From: Cloeon dipterum | Taxonomy: Eukaryota; Arthropoda; Insecta; Ephemeroptera; Baetidae | Length of the DNA: 64,000 nucleotides | NCBI RefSeq assembly: GCF_949628265.1 | Contig: NC_088789.1 | Span: 22,375,883-22,439,882, forward strand | Direction of reading: 5' to 3' | Part shown: piece after piece, positions 16,162-49,900 of the stretch | Layout of the letters: every line of letters begins with the position of its first letter | How positions within the stretch are numbered: position 1 is the stretch's first letter | Position numbers and translations under genes: made by a program | The notes under the pieces: model-generated | The model's database searches: none | Told to the model about the DNA's origin: nothing | Seen by the model: only the letters and a program-made list of their open reading frames with translations

Positions 16162-16380
16162 ACGATCGTGAAGATAGCCGTTCGAGTTAGCCGCTCGCGA
16201 GAAGATAGCCGCTTTTTCAGCAATGCTGCCAACCAAAAATTTCTAACGCAAAAAGAGGGTCGTATGCATAAATTTAAGGGATGGGGGTGAATCGGATACT
16301 GCCCAAGTGAAGTAAAATGCAACTCTTATTCGTAAAATAAAAATTTGAGCAAAAGAAAAGGGTGCAAATTAAGGGCTTAA
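16162..16380 (+). repeat. Left terminal inverted repeat, unique outer part
   Basis: This segment matches the reverse complement of 28390-28608 with scattered substitutions and a few indels. Shared words include GAGTTAGCCGCTCGCGAGAA, 'GCGGCTTTTTCAGCAATGC' type sequence and AAATTTAAGGGATGGGGG. A short direct repeat GAAGATAGCCG occurs twice near the tip (about 16170 and 16201). The two ends differ by several per cent, so this insertion is not brand new, or the ends were already diverged. Confidence 0.85.
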
Positions 16381-19250
16381 AATTCGAGGGGTGGTTCCTG
16401 AAGGGAGTTCAATCTTGGAACCCTTTGCAATTTATTAAAACCGATGAAAACAATATTTCCTGAGATTTTGAATTAATTTCAACGTTCCTAACCTGAGAAA
16501 ATTAAATAAAACTCCGAAAAAGGGTCAATTTTGAGGGTTAAAAATTCAAGGGGTGGCTCCTGAAGGGAGTTCGATCTCCAAACCCTTGCCACTTCCTTCA
16601 AACTAATAAATGCAATATTTCCTGCAAGTTTGAATGAATTTCACCGTTCCTAACTTGAGAAAATTAATTAAAACTCCGGAAAAGGGTCAATTTTGAGGGT
16701 TAAAAATTCGAGGGGTGGCTCCTGAAGGGAGTTCGATCTCCAAACCCTTTTTAATTTATTTAAACCGATAAAAGCAATATTTCCTGCGAGTTTGAATAAT
16801 TTTCACCGTTCCTAACTCGAGAAAATTAATTAAAACTCCGGAAAAGGGTCAATTTTGAGGGTTAAAAATTCGATGGGTGGCTCCTGAAGGGAGTTCGATC
16901 TCCAAACCCTTTTTAATTTATTTAAACCGATAAAAGCAATATTTCCTGCGAGTTTGAATAATTTTCACCGTTCCTAACTCGAGAAAATTAATTAAAACTC
17001 CGGAAAAGAGTCAATTTTGAGGGTTAAAAATTCGAGGAGTGTCTCCTGAAGAGAGTTCGATCTCCAAACCCTTGCCACTTCCTTTACACTAATAAATGCT
17101 ATATTTCTTGCGAGTTTGAATGAATTTCACCGTTCCTAACTCGAGAAAATTAATTAAAACTCCGGAAAAGGGTCAATTTTGAGGGTTAAAAATTCGAGGG
17201 GTGGCTCCTGAAGGGAGTTCGATCTCCAAACCCTTTTGAATTTATTTAAACCTATAAAAGCAATATTTCCTGCGAGTTTGAATAATTTTCACCGTTCCTA
17301 ACTCGAGAAAATTAATTAAAACTCCGGAAAAGAGTCAATTTTGAGGGTTAAAAATTCGAGGGGTGGCTCCTGAAGGGAGTTCGATCTCCAAACCCTTTTT
17401 AATTTATTTAAACCGATAAAAGCAATATTTCCTGCGAGTTTGAATAATTTTTACCGTTCCTAACTCGAGAAAATTAATTAAAACTCCGGAAAAGGGTCAA
17501 TTTTGAGGGTTAAAAATTCGAGGGGTGGCTCCTGAAGGGAGTTCGATCTCCAAACCCTTTTGAATTTATTTAAACCGATAAAAGCAATATTTCCTGCGAG
17601 TTTGAATAATTTTCACCGTTCCTAACTCGAGAAAATTAATTAAAACTCCGGAAAAGAGTCAATTTTGAGGATTAAAAATTCGAGGGGTGGCTCCTGAAGG
17701 GAGTTCGATCTCCAAACCCTTGCCACTTCCTTTAGGCTAATAAATGCTATATTTCCTGCGAATTTGAATAATTTTAACCGTTCCTAACTCGAGAAAATTA
17801 ATTAAAACTCCGGAAAAGGGTCAATTTTGAGGGTTAAAAATTCGAGGGGTGGCTCCTGAGGGGAGTTCGATCTCCAAACCCTTTTTAATTTATTTAAACC
17901 GATAAAAGCAATATTTCCTGCGAATTTGAATAATTTTCACCGTTCCTAACTCGAGAAAATTAATTAAAACTCCGGAAAAGAGTCAATTTTGAGGATTAAA
18001 AATTCGAGGGGTGGCTCCTGAGGGGAGTTCGATCTCGAAACCCTTGCCACTTCCTTTAGACTAATAAATGCAATATTTCTTGCGAGTTTGAATGAATTTC
18101 ACCGTTCCTAACTCGAGAAAATTAATTAAAACTCCGGAAAAGGGTCAATTTTGAGGGTTAAAAATTCGAGGGGTGGCTCCTGAAGGGAGTTCGATCTCCA
18201 AACCCTTTTTAATTTATTTAAACCGATAAAAGCAATATTTCCTGCGAGTTTGAATAATTTTCACCGTTCCTAACTCGAGAAAATTAATTAAAACTCCGGA
18301 AAAGGGTCAATTTTGAGGGTTAAAAATTCGAGGGGTGGCTCCTGAAGGGAGTTCGATCTCCAAACCCTTTTTAATTTATTTAAACCGATAAAAGCAATAT
18401 TTCCTGCGAGTTTGAATAATTTTCACCGTTCCTAACTCGAGAAAATTAATTAAAACTCCGGAAAAGAGTCAATTTTGAGGGTTAAAAATTCGAGGGGTGG
18501 CTCCTGAAGGGAGTTCGATCTCCAAACCCTTTTGAATTTATTTAAACCGATAAAAGCAATATTTCCTGCGAGTTTGAATAATTTTCACCGTTCCTAACTC
18601 GAGAAAATTAATTAAAACTCCGGAAAAGAGTCAATTTTGAGGATTAAAAATTCGAGGGGTGGCTCCTGAGGGGAGTTCGATCTCCAAACCCTTGCCACTT
18701 CCTTTAGACTAATAAATGCAATATTTCTTGTGTGTTTGAATGAATTTCACCGTTCCTAACTCGAGAAAATTAATTAAAACTCCGGAAAAGGGTCAATTTT
18801 GAGGGTTAAAAATTCGAGGAGTGTCTCCTGAAGGGAGTTCGATCTCCAAACCCTTGCCACTTCCTTTAGACTAATAAATGCTATATTTCCTGCGAATTTG
18901 AATAATTTTCACCGTTCCTAACTCGAGAAAATTAATTAAAACTCCGGAAAAGGGTCAATTTTGAGGGTTAAAAATTCGAGGGGTGGCTCCTGAAGGGAGT
19001 TCGATCTCCAAACCCTTTTTAATTTATTTAAACCGATAAAAGCAATATTTCCTGCGAGTTTGAATAATTTTCACCGTTCCTAACTCGAGAAAATTAATTA
19101 AAACTCCGGAAAAGGGTCAATTTTGAGGGTTAAAAATTCGATGGGTGGCTCCTGAAGGGAGTTCGATCTCTAACCTCTACTCAATTCATTTAGACTAATT
19201 AATACAATATTTCCTTGCGAGTTTTAACCAATTTAATCGTTCCTAACTCG
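16381..19250 (+). repeat. Tandem array of 162-bp repeats, about 18 units (left arm)
   Basis: The word TTCGAGGGGTGGCTCC recurs with a strict 162-bp spacing (for example C at 16709, 16871, 17033, 17195, 17357, 17519). Each unit contains CTCGAG (an XhoI site) in 'CCTAACTCGAGAAAATTAA', a short hairpin-capable CTCCTGAAGGGAG, and an internal variable segment. Two subtypes are mixed: type A with 'TTGCCACTTCCTTTAGACTAAT' style sequence and type B with 'TTTAATTTATTTAAACCGAT' style sequence; a few A units carry GTGTCTCC in place of GTGGCTCC. The first and last units are the most diverged, as expected when an array is homogenised from within. No unit is coding. Confidence 0.95.
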
Positions 19251-20310
19251 AGAAAATAAATAATTGGCTAAAAAAGCGATTAAATGAAGTTTTAAAAATT
19301 TATAGAAAAAAGATAACAATATATATCTCTGAAACATAATATAGTGTTTAATTGTGTACATTTTTATTGTTTACGAGGGTATACAAATAGTATATGTTTT
19401 ACTACAGTAATATTATAGTCTGAAATCGAGATATTCAATCAATTTAAAAATTTGTTAGAGGAAACAAATGTTTTCAGCGCCTTTTTGAACTCTAGAAATG
19501 AACTTCATTTCGCACCTGCTCTACGAGGTTGTTTTTTATGTCAAAGTATTAAGGAACGACCCTGTAAACAGGGGGCAACGTGCACCTGATATATATTGAA
19601 TCATATTAAAAAAAAATTAATACGGGATCAGGTGCGGGCTTGGTGGTTAATATTGCAGAAAGTGCCAACATGGAAAAACTCCTTCAACGGGCTACTAATT
19701 GTAAGCCACCCTTCAGAAGATGCGCAGGGGTGCGCAGAGTACCGGTAAAGAATTGGCAAGTTACGGCCGCAAATTCAAAGGTTGAAGCAAATTTCAAGTG
19801 TGTGCGATTAACAAAGGAGTGTCAAAGCAATGGGAGGTAAATTTGAGCAGTTGGGAGATGTAATACTGGCTACCCAATGTCAGACATGGCAAAAAGGTGG
19901 TTAGTTTATAGTGACTCGAAATGTCGAAATGCTCAAATTTCTCAACGGGCTTGGAGGCGAACCGGCGCCAACTCGCTACTTGCTGGTTTGCACCTTTTTC
20001 CAGCATGCGTGGCTTCACGGGACGATGTCTAGCGTTTCAATGCAGTCCTCGGTGCGAAGGCAAGTGGCCCTTCAGTGGGCTGGGTCCCTGTGCGGCCTGG
20101 TGCGCCCATGTTATCCGTTCGCGCTGTTATTGGGACCCGGGTTTCAGCATTCGTGCTAGTGCAGTGCGCGCCCTTCCCGCTCCTCGGACAGGGATAAAAA
20201 GAGCAAAAAAATCAATTCATCTTGTGACGTTTTTTGATAAATTATTGGCTCCTACATATAAAATAAAGGATCGGTTTACACTTTTGCACAGCCTTCCTTA
20301 ACCAAAAGTA
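19251..20310. other. Unique DNA inside the transposon, left of the inner arm
   Basis: About 1.06 kb with no counterpart on the right side. It includes GC-richer sequence at about 19960-20200 with short ORFs that resemble no protein I know, and an AT-rich part at 19250-19480. A GGGATAAAAAGAGC motif near 20190 could be TATA-like. Nothing here can be assigned. Confidence 0.5.
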
Positions 20311-26109: not shown

Positions 26110-28389
26110 GACAAACCAAAGAATTTTTAATCCTCAAAATAGACACATTTTCGGAGTTTTATTTAATTTTCTCGAGTTAGGAACGGTGAAATTCATTCAA
26201 ACTCGCAAGAAATATTGCATTTATTAGTCTAAAGGAAGTGGCAAGGGTTTGGAGATCGAACTCCCTTCAGGAGACACTCCTCGAATTTTTAACCCTCAAA
26301 ATTGACTTTTTTCCGGAGTTTTAATTAATTTTCTCGAGTTAGGAACGGTGAAATTGGATCAATCTCGCAGGAAATATTGCTTTTATTGGTTTAAATAAAT
26401 TAAAAAGGGTTTGGAGATCGAACTCCCTTCAGGAGCCACCCCTCGAATTTTTAACCCTCAAAATTGACCCTTTTCCGGAGTTTTAATTAATTTTCTCGAG
26501 TTAGGAACGGTGAAAATTATTCAAACTCGCAGGAAATATTGCTTTTATCGGTTTAAATAAATTAAAAAGGGTTTGGAGATCGAACTCCCTTCAGGAGACA
26601 CTCCTCGAATTTTTAACCCTCAAAATTGACTTTTTTCCGGAGTTTTAATTAATTTTCTCGAGTTAGGAACGGTGAAATTGGATCAAACTCGCAGGAAATA
26701 TTGCTTTTATTGGTTTAAATAAATTAAAAAGGGTTTGGAGATCGAACTCCCTTCAGGAGCAACCCCTCGAATTTTTACCCTCAAAATTGACCCTTTTCCG
26801 GAGTTTTAATTAATTTTCTCGAGTTAGGAACGGTGAAAATTATTCAAATTCGCAGGAAATATAGCATTTATTAGTCTAAAGGAAGTGGCAAGGGTTTGGA
26901 GATCGAACTCCCTTCAGGAGACACTCCTCGAATTTTTAACCCTCAAAATTGACTTTTTTCCGGAGTTTTAATTAATTTTCTCGAGTTAGGAACGGTGAAA
27001 TTGGATCAAACTCGCAGGAAATATTGCTTTTATCGGTTTAAATAAATTAAAAAGGGTTTGGAGATCGAACTCCCTTCAGGAGCAACCCCTCGAATTTTTA
27101 CCCTCAAAATTGACCCTTTTCCGGAGTTTTAATTAATTTTCTCGAGTTAGGAACGGTGAAAATTATTCAAATTCGCAGGAAATATAGCATTTATTAGTCT
27201 AAAGGAAGTGGCAAGGGTTTGGAGATCGAACTCCCTTCAGGAGACACTCCTCGAATTTTTAACCCTCAAAATTGACTTTTTTCCGGAGTTTTAATTAATT
27301 TTCTCGAGTTAGGAACGGTGAAATTGGATCAAACTCGCAGGAAATATTGCTTTTATCGGTTTAAATTAATTAAAAAGGGTTTGGAGATCGAACTCCCTTC
27401 AGGAGCAACCCCTCGAATTTTTACCCTCAAAATTGACCCTTTTCCGGAGTTTTAATTAATTTTCTCGAGTTAGGAACGGTGAAAATTATTCAAACTCGCA
27501 GGAAATATTGCATTTATTAGTCTAAAGGAAGTGGCAAGGGTTTGGAGATCGAACTCCCTTCAGGAGACACTCCTCGAATTTTTAACCCTCAAAATTGACT
27601 TTTTTCCGGAGTTTTAATTAATTTTCTCGAGTTAGGAACGGTGAAATTCATTCAAACTCGCAGGAAATATTGCTTTTATTGGTTTAAATTAATTAAAAAG
27701 GGTTTGGAGATCGAACTCCCTTCAGGAGCAACCCCTCGAATTTTTACCCTCAAAATTGACCCTTTTCCGGAGTTTTAATTAATTTTCTCAAGTTAGGAAC
27801 GGTGAAATTGGATCAAACTCGCAGGAAATATTGCTTTTATTGGTTTAAATAAATTAAAAAGGGTTATGAGATCGAACTCCCTTCAGGAGACACTCCTCGA
27901 ATTTTTAACCCTCAAAATTGACTTTTTTCCGGAGTTTTAATTAATTTTCTCAAGTTAGGAACGGTGAAATTCATTCAAACTCGCAGGAAATATTGCTTTT
28001 ATTGGTTTAAATTAATTAAAAAGGGTTTGGAGATCGAACTCCCTTCAGGAGCCACCCCTCGAATTTTTAACCCTCAAAATTGACCCTTTTCCGGAGTTTT
28101 AATTAATTTTCTCGAGTTAGGAACGGTGAAAATTATTCAAACTCGCAGGAAATATTGCTTTTATCGGTTTAAATAAATTAAAAAGGGTTTCGAGATCGAA
28201 CTCCCTTCAGGAGCCACCCCTCGAATTTTTAACCCTCAAAATTGACTTTTTTCCGGAGTTTTAATTAATTTTCTCGAGTTAGGAACGGTGAAAATTATTC
28301 AAACTCGCAGGAAATATTGCTTTTATCGGTTTAAATAAATTAAAAAGGGTTTGGAGATCGAACTCCCTTCAGGAACCACCCCTTGAATT
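26110..28389 (-). repeat. Tandem array of 162-bp repeats, about 14 units (right arm)
   Basis: The same unit as the left array but inverted. Over about 26567-28022 units alternate regularly between a form with 'GGAGACACTCC...GACTTTTTTCC' and a form with 'GGAGCAACCCC...GACCCTTTTCC', giving a dimeric higher-order period near 324 bp. The left array does not show this order, so the two arrays have expanded independently. Confidence 0.95.
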
Positions 28390-28608
28390 TTAAGCCCTTA
28401 ATTTGCACCCTTTTCTTTTGCTCAAATTTTTATTTTACGAATAAGAGTTGCATTTTACTTCACTTGGGCAGTATCCGATTCTCCCCCATCCCTTAAATTT
28501 ATGCGTACGACCCTCTTTTTGTTTTAGAAATTTTAGGTTGGCAGCATTGCTGAAAAAGCGGCTATCTTCTCGCGAGCGGCTAACTCGAGCGGCCAACTTC
28601 ACATTCGT
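28390..28608 (-). repeat. Right terminal inverted repeat, unique outer part
   Basis: Mirror of 16162-16380 with scattered differences. It ends ...CTTCACATTCGT at 28608, directly followed by the second copy of the target duplication. Confidence 0.85.
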
Positions 28609-43986: not shown

Positions 43987-46900
43987 ATGTCTCTGTGGGC
44001 AAAGGCGCAGCATCTGGGCGAAGAGGCGCTGCAGCAGGTGCGCGCTGCCTATGGTGACCACTTCCCCATCGAAGTGCGCCACTTCCTCGCTGGATGGCTG
44101 GAAGAAAAAATGTGGCCGGGCTTTGATCCAGAGAACCCCAGCTATGAGCACTTCGCCGCTGAGCTCGTGCAGACCATGATCATCGAGCTGGAAAACAAGG
44201 CGAGCGCTATGGCCAACACGGATGAGCTCTTCCTCGTCAAGATGAAACTCAACGATGCCATCAACATGTTCAAGGTTCATAAAAAATATCATTTTTTTCT
44301 ACGATGGTCATATTTTCAACGGATTTCCCGTTTTGAAACCTGCCGGTTTTAGAAGAAGAAAATAATAGTTTAAAATTATAAGTTTTCATTGCACTACACT
44401 CGTGAAAAGGAAGTACCCAAAAATAAAAAATAACCGCTGGCGCTCTATTATTTGCGTCTTCTATTTGGGCCTGTCACGAGTAATGAATTAACATAAATAT
44501 TTCAGAAGTAAATAGAATCGTGCAAGTAAATTTGTTTTAATTTAAAAAGTTGTAAATTTTGTATCAGCTTTTAGAATATATGTTGGCGAATTATAAATTA
44601 AAAACTGCATAGTAATAGTAAGGACAATTTTTAACATTGAATCAGATAACATAACTATCAATAAATATTTCTGGATTGATTGTGATATAAAACACGCACT
44701 AAAATGGTCAATATATCTAACTTTGAAAATCTCAATTCCAGACCCGGTATGCCAACAACAACCTCGCGTTGGTGCGCATAATTAAGCACTGCCTATCATC
44801 AGATTTGAAAATAGTCCAACAGTACGAATCCGTGAGTATCTGACATGTTGCATCACTACTAGGCTATAAACAACATTAACAATATTCGTTTTACGTGTTT
44901 AAAAAAATATCTGTAACTCTTTAAACTCACTTGATGTGCTTGCTAACTGTTTGCATGCTTTGTTTTCGTTCCTCTGAATGTCAGACATGGAATTCTGCGG
45001 GCACCTCAGCTGGTGACTCTAATCCTTCGTCGATGCCACAGGCGAGTGCTTCGCGCATGATGGAGCACCAACAGCAACACATCCAACCACAACAACAGCC
45101 ACAGATGATGCATAATTTGGGCAGCGCCCTTGAGGCCACCAATGCTGAGATCACTACGCAAATCGAGTACCTGCGCTCGCGGACGCAGAAGACCGCTGAA
45201 GATTGCCGGCACATCGAGCAGCAGCAGGAATCGTTCGCAATAAAGTACCACGAATGCACGAAAGTAAACGGTATGCAATTTGACAACTAATTTGTCTACT
45301 ATAATATCTGCACAGTTTTTATTCACACTGATGCTCTTGCTCCTTAATTAAAAATTAATAATGACATTTGAAATTTTGACTCTTTAGTGAGAAAATTTTA
45401 TTTCATTACTATAGTTTTTTTTGGCAATTAAATTTTGGAAGTTCCCTCCTGAAATCAACCATGATTTTCAATTAGGAGAATCTGATTTTCACGTAATTTG
45501 AGCTTAGTTTTTTGTTTTTGCCCAATTTTGAGTAATAATTATTTCATGTAGTAGTAGAAAAAAATCAAGACTTTTGTGCCCACTTGATGACCAAAAACCA
45601 TAAGTTATGAATATTTCAGCACAACTGCAGCACCTTGCAACCCAGCCGCGCACGCCGACTACTGCGGCCGCGGTGGCAAAATGGACGGAGCAGAAGGAGA
45701 TGCTGGAAGCCATGTTGAGCCAGTTTGTGGCCAGCGTGCTGCAAATGCGCATTCAGCTGATTGACAAGCTCAAGGAGACGACTAGCCTGCTAAACGCGCT
45801 GCAGACGCGTGTGCTGGATGAAGAGCTGATACAGTGGAAGCGGGAGCAGCAGTTGGCCGGCAACGGCGCATCGCATGTGCAAACCAACCTTGACAGCATC
45901 CAGGACTGGTGCGACGCCCTGGCTGAGCTTGTCTGGGCCAACCGCCAACAAGTAAAGGAGGCCCAGCGGCTCATGTCAAAACTGAACCTCGAGCCATCTG
46001 GCTTGTCCGACCTACTGACACCCCTATTGAGCCAGGTCACACAAATGCTCTCTTCGCTGGTCACCAGGTACATGATCTAATCCAGAAACTCGCTGTTTTA
46101 TTGTATTGACTGTTGTTGAATTACATATTATCTCTTCACGCTAATTTTTTTTCAACTACCTTGACCTAAACTATGAGGACCCACCTGTGGTATGGGTCCT
46201 CAGATTTTTGGTGCTGCCAATTCAAAGAATTGCCTATTTAACATGGGCTCAGAGTTAGCCACTATTCAAAAGAGTGATTTTTCCAGCTTAGAGTAACTCT
46301 TGTTCTGATCGAGGAATATAAAAAAATGACGCAAAACAACTTACCAAGGGTGACCAAGGCAAAAACCAAGGCGGAAAATAAAGTTGATCATCTTGGCATC
46401 GAGAGGAAAAACAATACTGAATTTTACAACTGCGATAATGGAATTATCTTTGTGTAGCTTTATCGATAAAATTCTTGATTGATTTCGGAAACATCCAAGA
46501 TGTATTAATAATTTGCTGTTGTTGAATTCTGTTTTAATTAGTAATAATTAATTTAATCAATTGCTTATGATTTTCATTTTTATAAAATAGTTTTTTTTTC
46601 CTTAAAATTTGAATTATTCCTGAAATTCCCTCATTTGAATAAAATTTGCCTTCCAGCACGTTTATCATCGAAAAGCAGCCGCCACAAGTGATGAAAACGA
46701 ACACTCGTTTCTCCTCAACGGTTAGACTGTTGGTTGGCGGCAAGTTGAACGTGCACATGAACCCGCCGCAGGTGAACAGGGTTCGCAAAAACCCGCATTT
46801 TTCCGGAAAAACCCACTGCAAAAAACTGTTTTTTTGCGGGTTTTTCTGCAATTTTGCGAATTTTTCCGAAACACATGCATTCTTATGGAAAATAAAAAAA

Positions 46901-49900
46901 TTCTCATGATGTATGGCCAAAAGTATGGATTTTTCATACACATCAAAATCAGTATTAGAGCCACTGGTTCCACCAAGAGACAGAACATTTTAACTCTCTG
47001 CGTAATTTTCTGAAATTTCAAACTCTTTTCAAGCGAAAATTGACTATTTTCGGGTTAAATTCGGAAAAATGCGGAAAAATCCAAGACTGGTGGTTTTTTC
47101 CAACCGGTTTTTTGCGCAAAAAACCAGTGGTGCATTTTTGCGCATTGCAAAATTAGCGAACCCTGCAGGTGAAGGTGTCCATTATCTCGGAGAGCCAGGC
47201 CAACTCGCTGCTCAAAAATGACAAGAATGTAAAAGGAGACTCAAGCGGCGAAATCCTTAACAGCACCGGCTCCATGGAGTACCACCAGGCTACTCGTCAG
47301 CTCTCTGTCAGCTTCCGGTATGAAGAAGTTTCCTATCTTTTGAAAATTAATGTGGATTTGTTTGCTCAATTTTTTCGTCATTTCTGACGCAGACTGCAAC
47401 AATCTCGCATTATATTATACTAATTTTGCTTTAAAGGTTTTTTAAGACTGGAAATAGTTTTTATTTTCCTCAAATTACCCTCTCTAGTATAAGCAATTTT
47501 TTATTTATCTTAAATTTAATTCGCATTCTGCACTACTTAGTCTTTGATTAACAAATATTGTTTTATCTTTCCAGCAACATGCAGTTGAAAAAGATCAAAC
47601 GCGCTGAGAAGAAAGGCACCGAATCGGTGATGGATGAGAAATTCGCTCTGCTGTTCCAGTCGCAGTTTAACGTTGGAGGCGGCGAGCTCGTGTTCCAAGT
47701 AGGGTTTCCAACCTCTTGGTTTTTTAATAGTTTTCTCAGGGTTTGGGACTTATTGACATTATTGACCTAGAGTGGTCTATATTTTGAAAATTTAGGGATC
47801 TCCATTTTATTGGTCACAAAATTTAACATGGGCTAATGGGAAATCTCTGGTATTGAGAGGTATTGAGCGCTGGTGTTCTAACTTCCCTAATTCCAGGTGT
47901 GGACGCTCTCTCTGCCCGTGGTGGTGATCGTGCACGGCAACCAGGAGCCACACGCCTGGGCCACAGTCACCTGGGACAACGCGTTCGCTGAGCCTGGTCG
48001 CCCCCCGTTTACTGTGCCTGAGAAGGTGCCGTGGCATGCGGTCGCAGAGGCGCTCAACATGAAGTTCAAGTCCTCCACAGGCAGGGCCCTCACCGATGAC
48101 AACCTCCGCTTCTTGGGCGAGAAGGCCTTTAGAGCGGGCAACTCAAATATCCAGGACTACAGCTCTATGCTGCTCACGTGGGCCCAGTTCTGTAAGGAGC
48201 CGCTGCAGGAGAGGAACTTCACCTTCTGGGAGTGGTTCTACTCGGTGATGAAAGTCACCCGGGAACATCTGCGTAGTCCCTGGACCGATGGGTATGTTTT
48301 ATTCTGTTTGTCGATCTTGGTTTTAACCAATAGTTAGATTAGGTCGTACAATTCTAATTTTGTAGTGTAATACAATTAAAATCTCAGGTTCTATAGGTGG
48401 ATTATCAAGCTCTTTTTATTTTAAAATGTTGAAGATGGTAAAATTAGACTAAATTTCCATTCTTAACTTCAATGGAATTTGATTACAGGTGTTTAAATTT
48501 ATCAATAAATGCAAACTAGTGCTTGCTAGATCAATTACACTTTTAAATTTGTTTTGAAACTTTTAAATATTGGCTGTTTAATTTCATCAATAATTAGTTC
48601 TTTACATTTTACTTATTTTTACTTTGCTATTTCTTAAAAGTAAACTTTTCTCTAGATCAATCCTCGGCTTCGTGCGCAAGAAGCAGGCAGAGGAAATGAT
48701 CTCAAGCTGCCCGCTGGGAACCTTTTTGCTGCGCTTCTCTGACTCCGAGCTGGGCGGCGTGGTCATCGCCTGGTATGGTAAGTAGCTCAACCCTTTTGTC
48801 TAGGCTCACTCAGCCTTTTAATTTTTCCCTTGACAGGCAACCAGGGCAACGGTCCAGCCGTCAGTATGTTGCATCCGTTCACCAGCAAGGACTTTGCCAT
48901 CCGAAGCCTGGGCGACCGGCTTTCTGACCTGCAGTATCTTACGACGCTGTACCCCGACACACCAAAGGACACTGCATTCAGCAAATACTACAACCCCTTC
49001 AGAGGTAAGATTTGTTTCAGTTTATTTTTGTCTTGGTTACTAGGTCATGAAGCTCCAATTTTAAATTATGAAAATCCATTTTTTCATTTAGAAAAAATAT
49101 GAAAAATTAATTTTACATTATTTTTACAACAATTGCGGCTCAGTGCAACGTGAGATTGCTTTTGAATCGTTTTCACAGCTAGATCTTACTATATTTTAAT
49201 CATTTATCATACTTATATAACCCAGTTGCTGAAAAATTAAACTCAACCCTTTAAATGAATTAAATATGATTTTTTCTTAAATCATTGCAGACAACCAGCC
49301 TCCCCAGAAGAACGGTTACGTGATGCCTGTGCTTGTGACCCACGTGCCAGGGTGAGTGAATTTTTCTCCAAAAAGTATGAAGAACTTAACTGTGATTAAG
49401 CATGCCTCGTTTTTCCAGATGGGATAGGTTGCCGAACAGCATGCCCAGCTACCCATCGACGCCGCAGAACATGTTCCAGCCCCAGTCGCCGGAGGGCAGT
49501 GTGAGAGACACTCCATCCGTGGTCAGCGGCGTTGAGACTACGGCCAGGTAAGTTGCTTGCATAGCTTCCATTTTTTCTGTCTATTGCTCGAGCGAACGCA
49601 TCTCACACCGATCCTGGTCTGCCTACAGCGGTATGTCGACTGTAATGGAGCTGTGAAAACAAACTCACAGGCATGAAGACACGATTGTGCAACCGTTTGT
49701 TGAATTGACTCTCGAAAATAGGGCTGCTCGTCGCACGTTGCAAAGCGAAACATTCAAAATGTTTGCACTGCTCCGATCCAATGTGAATCACAAAATTGAA
49801 ATCGCGGGGATTCAGACGCAAAATTCAATTAATATTCTGACAATTGATCTCACCTATAAATTTGATCATCACAAGTATTTTAAACGTTGGTTTTGCTTTT

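Follow-up and report, generated by a model that had tools for sequence, protein, structure and literature searches.

Does intron 5 of the STAT gene of the mayfly Cloeon dipterum consist of nothing but a transposable element and one copy of the target-site duplication (TSD) made by its insertion, and did that duplication supply both splice sites? We addressed this question in a stretch of 64,000 nucleotides (contig NC_088789.1, positions 22,375,883 to 22,439,882; hereafter the window, whose numbering is used below unless another contig is named) and in the complete assembly, which comprises 190.1 Mb in 10 contigs. The results make it very likely that a miniature inverted-repeat transposable element (MITE) inserted into an AGGT of the single STAT gene and thereby gave rise to an intron with both splice sites drawn from the TSD.

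Anatomy of STAT intron 5

The intron (46772..47168, forward strand, as are all STAT features given here) is a phase 0 GT-AG intron of 397 nt that starts with GTGAAC and ends with CCCTGCAG. It separates exon 5 (46657..46771), which ends with NPPQ and whose 5' boundary at STFIIEK is shared by many homologous exons, from exon 6 (47169..47317), which starts with VKVSIIS, both exons being defined by the spliced open reading frame (ORF). The octamer CAGGTGAA is present at 46769..46776 and again at 47166..47173, identical at 8 of 8 positions, and constitutes an exact 8-bp TSD. The element enclosed between the two copies (46777..47165, 389 bp) starts with the left terminal inverted repeat (TIR) CAGGGTTCGC (46777..46786) and finishes with its exact reverse complement GCGAACCCTG (47156..47165), the match being 10/10 bases, or 12/13 when extended. 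Element plus one TSD account for every base of the intron. The initial annotation of this DNA had described the same coordinates, 8-bp duplication, 389-bp element and perfect 10-bp inverted ends, all of which proved exact to the base, and had stated correctly that no further intron sequence exists.

The left TSD carries the predicted donor CAG/GTGAAC (the slash marks the splice junction) and the right TSD the predicted acceptor CAG/GTGAAG, so that the two AGGT copies fall on the predicted GT-AG pair, in agreement with the proposal that the duplication made both sites. Joining the exons rebuilds exactly NPPQVKVS, again as proposed, within an open STAT of 800 aa, the join lying after codon 409 and inside the STAT_bind domain (residues 377-511). 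We thus envisage that a non-autonomous hAT-like MITE would have transposed into the exon sequence CAGGTGAA, that the 8-bp target duplication would have set one AGGT on each side of it, and that the upstream and downstream AGGT would have come to serve as 5' and 3' splice sites, respectively; the spliceosome would then excise the element along with exactly one duplication, restoring NPPQVKVS. Searched with the element, the window yielded only the STAT copy, other CAGGGTTTGC sites in the window formed no pair with matching duplications, and an Rfam scan of the window gave 0 families at gathering score.

The host gene was delimited by its spliced ORF, the proteins of relatives and Pfam. The STAT coding region (43987..49656) comprises 13 exons, joined by 12 GT-AG introns into an uninterrupted ORF for a short C-terminal form whose product contains all five Pfam STAT domains (STAT_int, STAT_alpha, STAT_bind, STAT_linker and SH2). 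An alternative last exon at 51950-52078 matches P0122, the long form in Cloeon dipterum; in the short form the coding sequence ends at 49656. The modelled start corresponds to an internal methionine in the Cloeon dipterum records, whose first residue lies 31 positions upstream. The closest named STAT proteins are those of Cloeon dipterum (94% and 93%) and Neocloeon triangulifer (70%), and the proteins of both mayflies are continuous across the junction. A second STAT gene, that is, a paralogue without the intron, was sought genome-wide and none was found, 5/5 matches falling in one locus. Elsewhere in the window, a 162-bp unit repeats in tandem in two large arrays at 16355-19261 and 26121-28415 (about 18 and 14 copies); their consensus units are apparently in opposite orientation, and the second array shows a higher period of 323 bp.

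The intron position in other animals and the predicted splice signals

Exons 5 and 6 used as a query retrieved 223 short homologous frames, and the best 120 of the 223 all run through NPPQ/V gap-free, a list that favours uninterrupted frames because those broken at the junction score lower. Sorted by our own motif match, 69 of these 120 frames appear to be unspliced genomic exons, the residues preceding STFIIEK not being those of STAT, while the left side is coding in 21 and allowed no verdict in 30. Frames P0237-P0239, with an apparent intron elsewhere (after MKTNTR), and P0319, with another, are all four uninterrupted at NPPQ/V. Among 222 longer STAT proteins, a set that includes annotated gene models besides transcripts and contains none from this very assembly, 192 matched a strict junction motif (191 of them without extra residues) and a looser motif recovered 20 more that read on, giving a total of 211/222; 8 matched neither motif. 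We read these sequences as indicating that many animal genomes probably lack an intron at NPPQ/V. Since the best 120 of the 223 frames read through the site and 69 of them are apparently genomic, STAT intron 5 is probably derived. The comparison with orthologues, whose genomic part covered animals other than mayflies, returned the intron absence that the initial annotation had anticipated, and together with the TSD and TIR anatomy it supports the claim of a single-step insertion into an uninterrupted exon.

Three gene models weigh against this reading. The mole-rat model P0057 reads otherwise at the junction, and the Rhipicephalus appendiculatus models P0047 and P0059 lack the residues between KQPPQ and NPPQ, the missing part reaching precisely to the codon boundary of intron 5. 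These oddities may be annotation errors, or those of the ticks may reflect a real intron edge at this site. The two tick models would also suit a history in which an older intron already occupied the position and was replaced or filled by the element, and CAG/GT is a common proto-splice site, so that an intron could arise at this position on two occasions. However, element and one TSD explain every intron base, and homologous exons, apparently unspliced genomic frames included, run through the site in the above best 120 of 223 frames (with their bias towards uninterrupted ones); we find such a history barely credible.

To what extent the predicted sites resemble working ones was judged with weight matrices built from the 11 other STAT introns only and scanned over 46650-47330. 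The TSD donor scored 5.94, the other STAT donors, each left out in turn, ranging from -0.23 to 10.6, and the TSD acceptor (CTGCAG/G) scored 3.73, the other acceptors ranging likewise from -7.61 to 11.8. These values ranked the TSD donor 4th of 32 GTs and the TSD acceptor 5th of 35 AGs in the scanned range. Several signals speak against exact and exclusive use of this pair: an exonic GT at 46721 outscores the TSD donor (6.85), the spare donor-like TSD copy at 47169 scores 6.00, with a pyrimidine fraction of 0.41 the acceptor is the poorest in pyrimidines among the 12 STAT introns, and two frame-compatible AGs surpass the TSD acceptor, namely one at 47033 inside the element (6.97), which however leads to a stop, and an exonic in-frame one at 47300 (3.96), whose use would delete 44 codons. 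Position 47168 is the best-scoring frame-compatible acceptor that restores the full domain.

A further acceptor, derived from the element itself, would allow the intron to be spliced in part at a TTAG ending at 47156. Its AG was created by a G>A change at 47155 relative to the subfamily consensus (of 33 other copies, 31 have G and 1 has A), and its use would lengthen the product by RTLQ through 12 nucleotides that keep the frame open. This acceptor scores just -1.78, compared to 3.73 for that of the TSD, and is followed by C instead of G; moreover, extra residues accompanied none of the tallied junction motifs, in proteins that do not come from this assembly. Partial use of the TTAG is consequently, in our judgement, highly unlikely.

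The pre-mRNA segment 46757-47183 is predicted to form an extended structure that the TIR helix closes, the donor adjoining the acceptor, with a minimum free energy of -128.1 versus -96.3 ± 5.1 for 100 shuffled sequences (z -6.28). Elements with inverted ends tend to fold into such structures, and a role of the fold in splicing is speculation. Taken further, the helix might aid splicing by setting the TSD sites side by side and offsetting the poor polypyrimidine tract, in which case any AGGT insertion could yield a serviceable intron and more hAT-derived mayfly introns might await; we hold this whole extension to be quite doubtful.

The element family and the age of the insertion

A genome search with the STAT element, in which 40 of 942 first-look candidates were scored, gave 41 matches, corresponding to the element itself, 39 others at 88-94% identity and one piece of 55 bases. 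With 20-mers from the ends allowed up to 2 mismatches, the left end was found at 381 places genome-wide and the right end at 621, reversed-pattern controls giving 0. Sixty distinct copies, STAT included, possess both ends and an 8-bp TSD at no more than 1 mismatch, and 56 scanned loci lacked such a combination, being truncated, diverged or chance places. The subfamily consensus measures 393 bp. When the STAT copy was excluded and both strands were counted, the family targets averaged nTnnnnAn, with T at position 2 and A at position 7 each reaching a frequency of 0.54; the STAT target fits this pattern at position 7 only. The pattern nTnnnnAn is the published target consensus of Ac-type hAT elements, and a TIR starting with CAGGG or CAGNG is typical of hAT. 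For an autonomous partner, 13 loci encoding a Dimer_Tnp_hAT domain were examined together with 1.5 kb on each side, and no matching end pair surrounded the domain; at one of them (L016), both element ends were located upstream of it. The hAT-like label is accordingly taken from ends and targets, since no transposase source with the same ends emerged near those loci. The hAT-like nature put forward initially is supported by the 8-bp TSDs, the TIR CAGGGTTCGC and the target consensus, the element being a non-autonomous MITE.

Whether the family generates introns repeatedly was examined through places where AGGT is followed within four bases by the TIR, a search that required an exact TIR and so covered copies with unmutated ends. 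Nine such places exist genome-wide. Three (L022, L024 and L030) showed no similarity to the element, by comparison or by eye, and six are family copies (L023, L025, L027-L029 and STAT), of which only STAT looks exonic; the other five have no matching right duplication, and the 200 nt upstream of them contain stops in all frames. Copies L027-L029 (G000:C5, about 2.10-2.12 Mb) go back to a single MITE insertion (target AGGTCACT) that occurs threefold within a local repeat (L027 is 97% similar to L029 and 91% to L028), and nothing upstream looks coding. An AGGT target was present in 1/60 copies, that of STAT, which was not a random pick, when 0.94 were expected. The frames obtained by joining the flanks of the 60 copies (52 + 8) were inspected mostly by eye, and Pfam, run on six of them, reported one family below cut-off and otherwise nothing.

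Only one other clear exonic insertion was seen. Copy L043 (G000:C1:37447800-37450100, element near 938-1332, TSD ATCAACAG) interrupts a reading frame that resembles leucine-rich repeats, a family name given by eye, Pfam finding nothing above cut-off. The reading frame continues into the element, where it meets a stop. The duplication, which reads CTGTTGAT on the coding strand, contains no AG and could not supply a GT-AG pair. Insertions of this family do, then, reach exons. A search with this frame gave at least 150 matches, its own locus included, most of them on C1 at 36.9-38.8 Mb. An introner family was not supported for the copies examined, given the AGGT targets at chance level and the single exonic place among nine. 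The introner-type family hinted at in the initial annotation was therefore not found: the genome search for copies at exon-exon joins singled out STAT alone, and no second exonic copy with splice-competent duplications appeared among the places examined. A selective filter may have operated, a splice-competent copy being found in single-locus STAT and the L043 copy, without such duplications, where gene copies abound; the two cases illustrate this filter and do not prove it.

The suggestion that the insertion is recent was not supported. Measured against the consensus of its 15 nearest copies, the STAT copy has diverged by 4.4%, and none of the other aligned copies shares its 5-bp deletion. 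Its terminal branch (0.028) ranks 24th in a tree built from 50 copies of 340-450 bp, and 7 of 33 other aligned copies, identical ones dropped, lie only 0.3-1.3% from their nearest neighbour. Some of the differences in the STAT copy are common to one or a few others, L003 above all. Nor does the perfect duplication, previously taken as a sign of recency, discriminate, as 45/60 family copies share this feature. In STAT, moreover, all 16 duplicated bases are exon or splice signal, and the intact TSDs say little on age because both copies are splice signal or coding.

It thus appears that the insertion was retained and that the ORF remained open. This combination of divergence, own deletion and open ORF argues against an unspliced null insertion, and persistence with an open ORF would be best explained by splicing. 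The opposing view is that the sequenced individual carried, in one STAT haplotype, a disruptive segregating allele with an unspliced or poorly spliced MITE, its AGGT being a coincidence. The weak polypyrimidine tract would fit such an allele, as would the stop that a reading frame retaining the element meets at 46909, inside the element, and the interruption of another gene copy by L043; splicing of the intron is, besides, predicted from sequence. Nevertheless, a single STAT locus was found, a terminal branch of about 2.8% and a private deletion coexist with an intact whole ORF, and the prior for an AGGT target is just about 1.6% per insertion on either strand. We therefore rate a disruptive allele as unlikely, and retain the MITE-derived intron, for which we infer efficient splicing in vivo and, through it, tolerance of the insertion.

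Comparison with known intron gains

Intron gain of this kind is already known, and the mayfly STAT case is a new example of it. In maize, a Ds element, likewise of the hAT type, reportedly caused the 'De novo synthesis of an intron' (Giroux 1994) upon insertion with an exonic 8-bp duplication, and is said to be removed as an intron with the aid of the duplicated host site, in a mutant allele with transcript proof. Both cases would involve a hAT-type element and an 8-bp duplication in an exon, the STAT case belonging to an insect genome and being known from its sequence.

Although the gain of introns from transposons is accepted, few cases are known outside the introner lineages in which a single conserved gene of an animal has an intron whose every base can be assigned to element or duplication, and the STAT intron offers a simple system in which to measure how bare TSD splice sites perform. 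Among the titles returned by searches of open-licence PMC papers, one of them on STAT intron positions, none names intron gain in mayflies or this gene, no search having been directed at the locus as such. Introners, according to the 2022 account by Gozashti (PMC9860276), are non-autonomous, many having TSDs or TIRs and some owing both of their splice sites to the insertion site or TSD; their families comprise several to thousands of spliced copies, are mostly gene-enriched and were reported in only two animal groups. The main text of PMC9860276 makes no mention of mayflies, Ephemeroptera, arthropod or hAT. In contrast to such families, that of the STAT element gives one intron among the copies examined.

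Closer in scale is intron 3 of Drosophila sechellia GM26034, which was gained by insertion of a Doc1053 retrotransposon with target duplications (PMC3296678). As in STAT, a single insect intron arose from one transposable element; the element in GM26034 was a retrotransposon and one TSD lies 15 nt downstream of the intron end, whereas in STAT a hAT-like MITE is involved and both predicted splice sites fall within the TSDs. In anatomy, the STAT intron is the same as that of the AGGT model outlined in a 2012 review (PMC3443670), according to which insertion into AGGT leaves a copy of this motif at either flank and can turn a transposon into an intron while the coding sequence stays intact, and where 35 unambiguous intron gains by transposon insertion were counted in Oryza, Drosophila, Oikopleura and Zea. 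To that model the mayfly gene would add a new host lineage and a new element, with splicing that is predicted.

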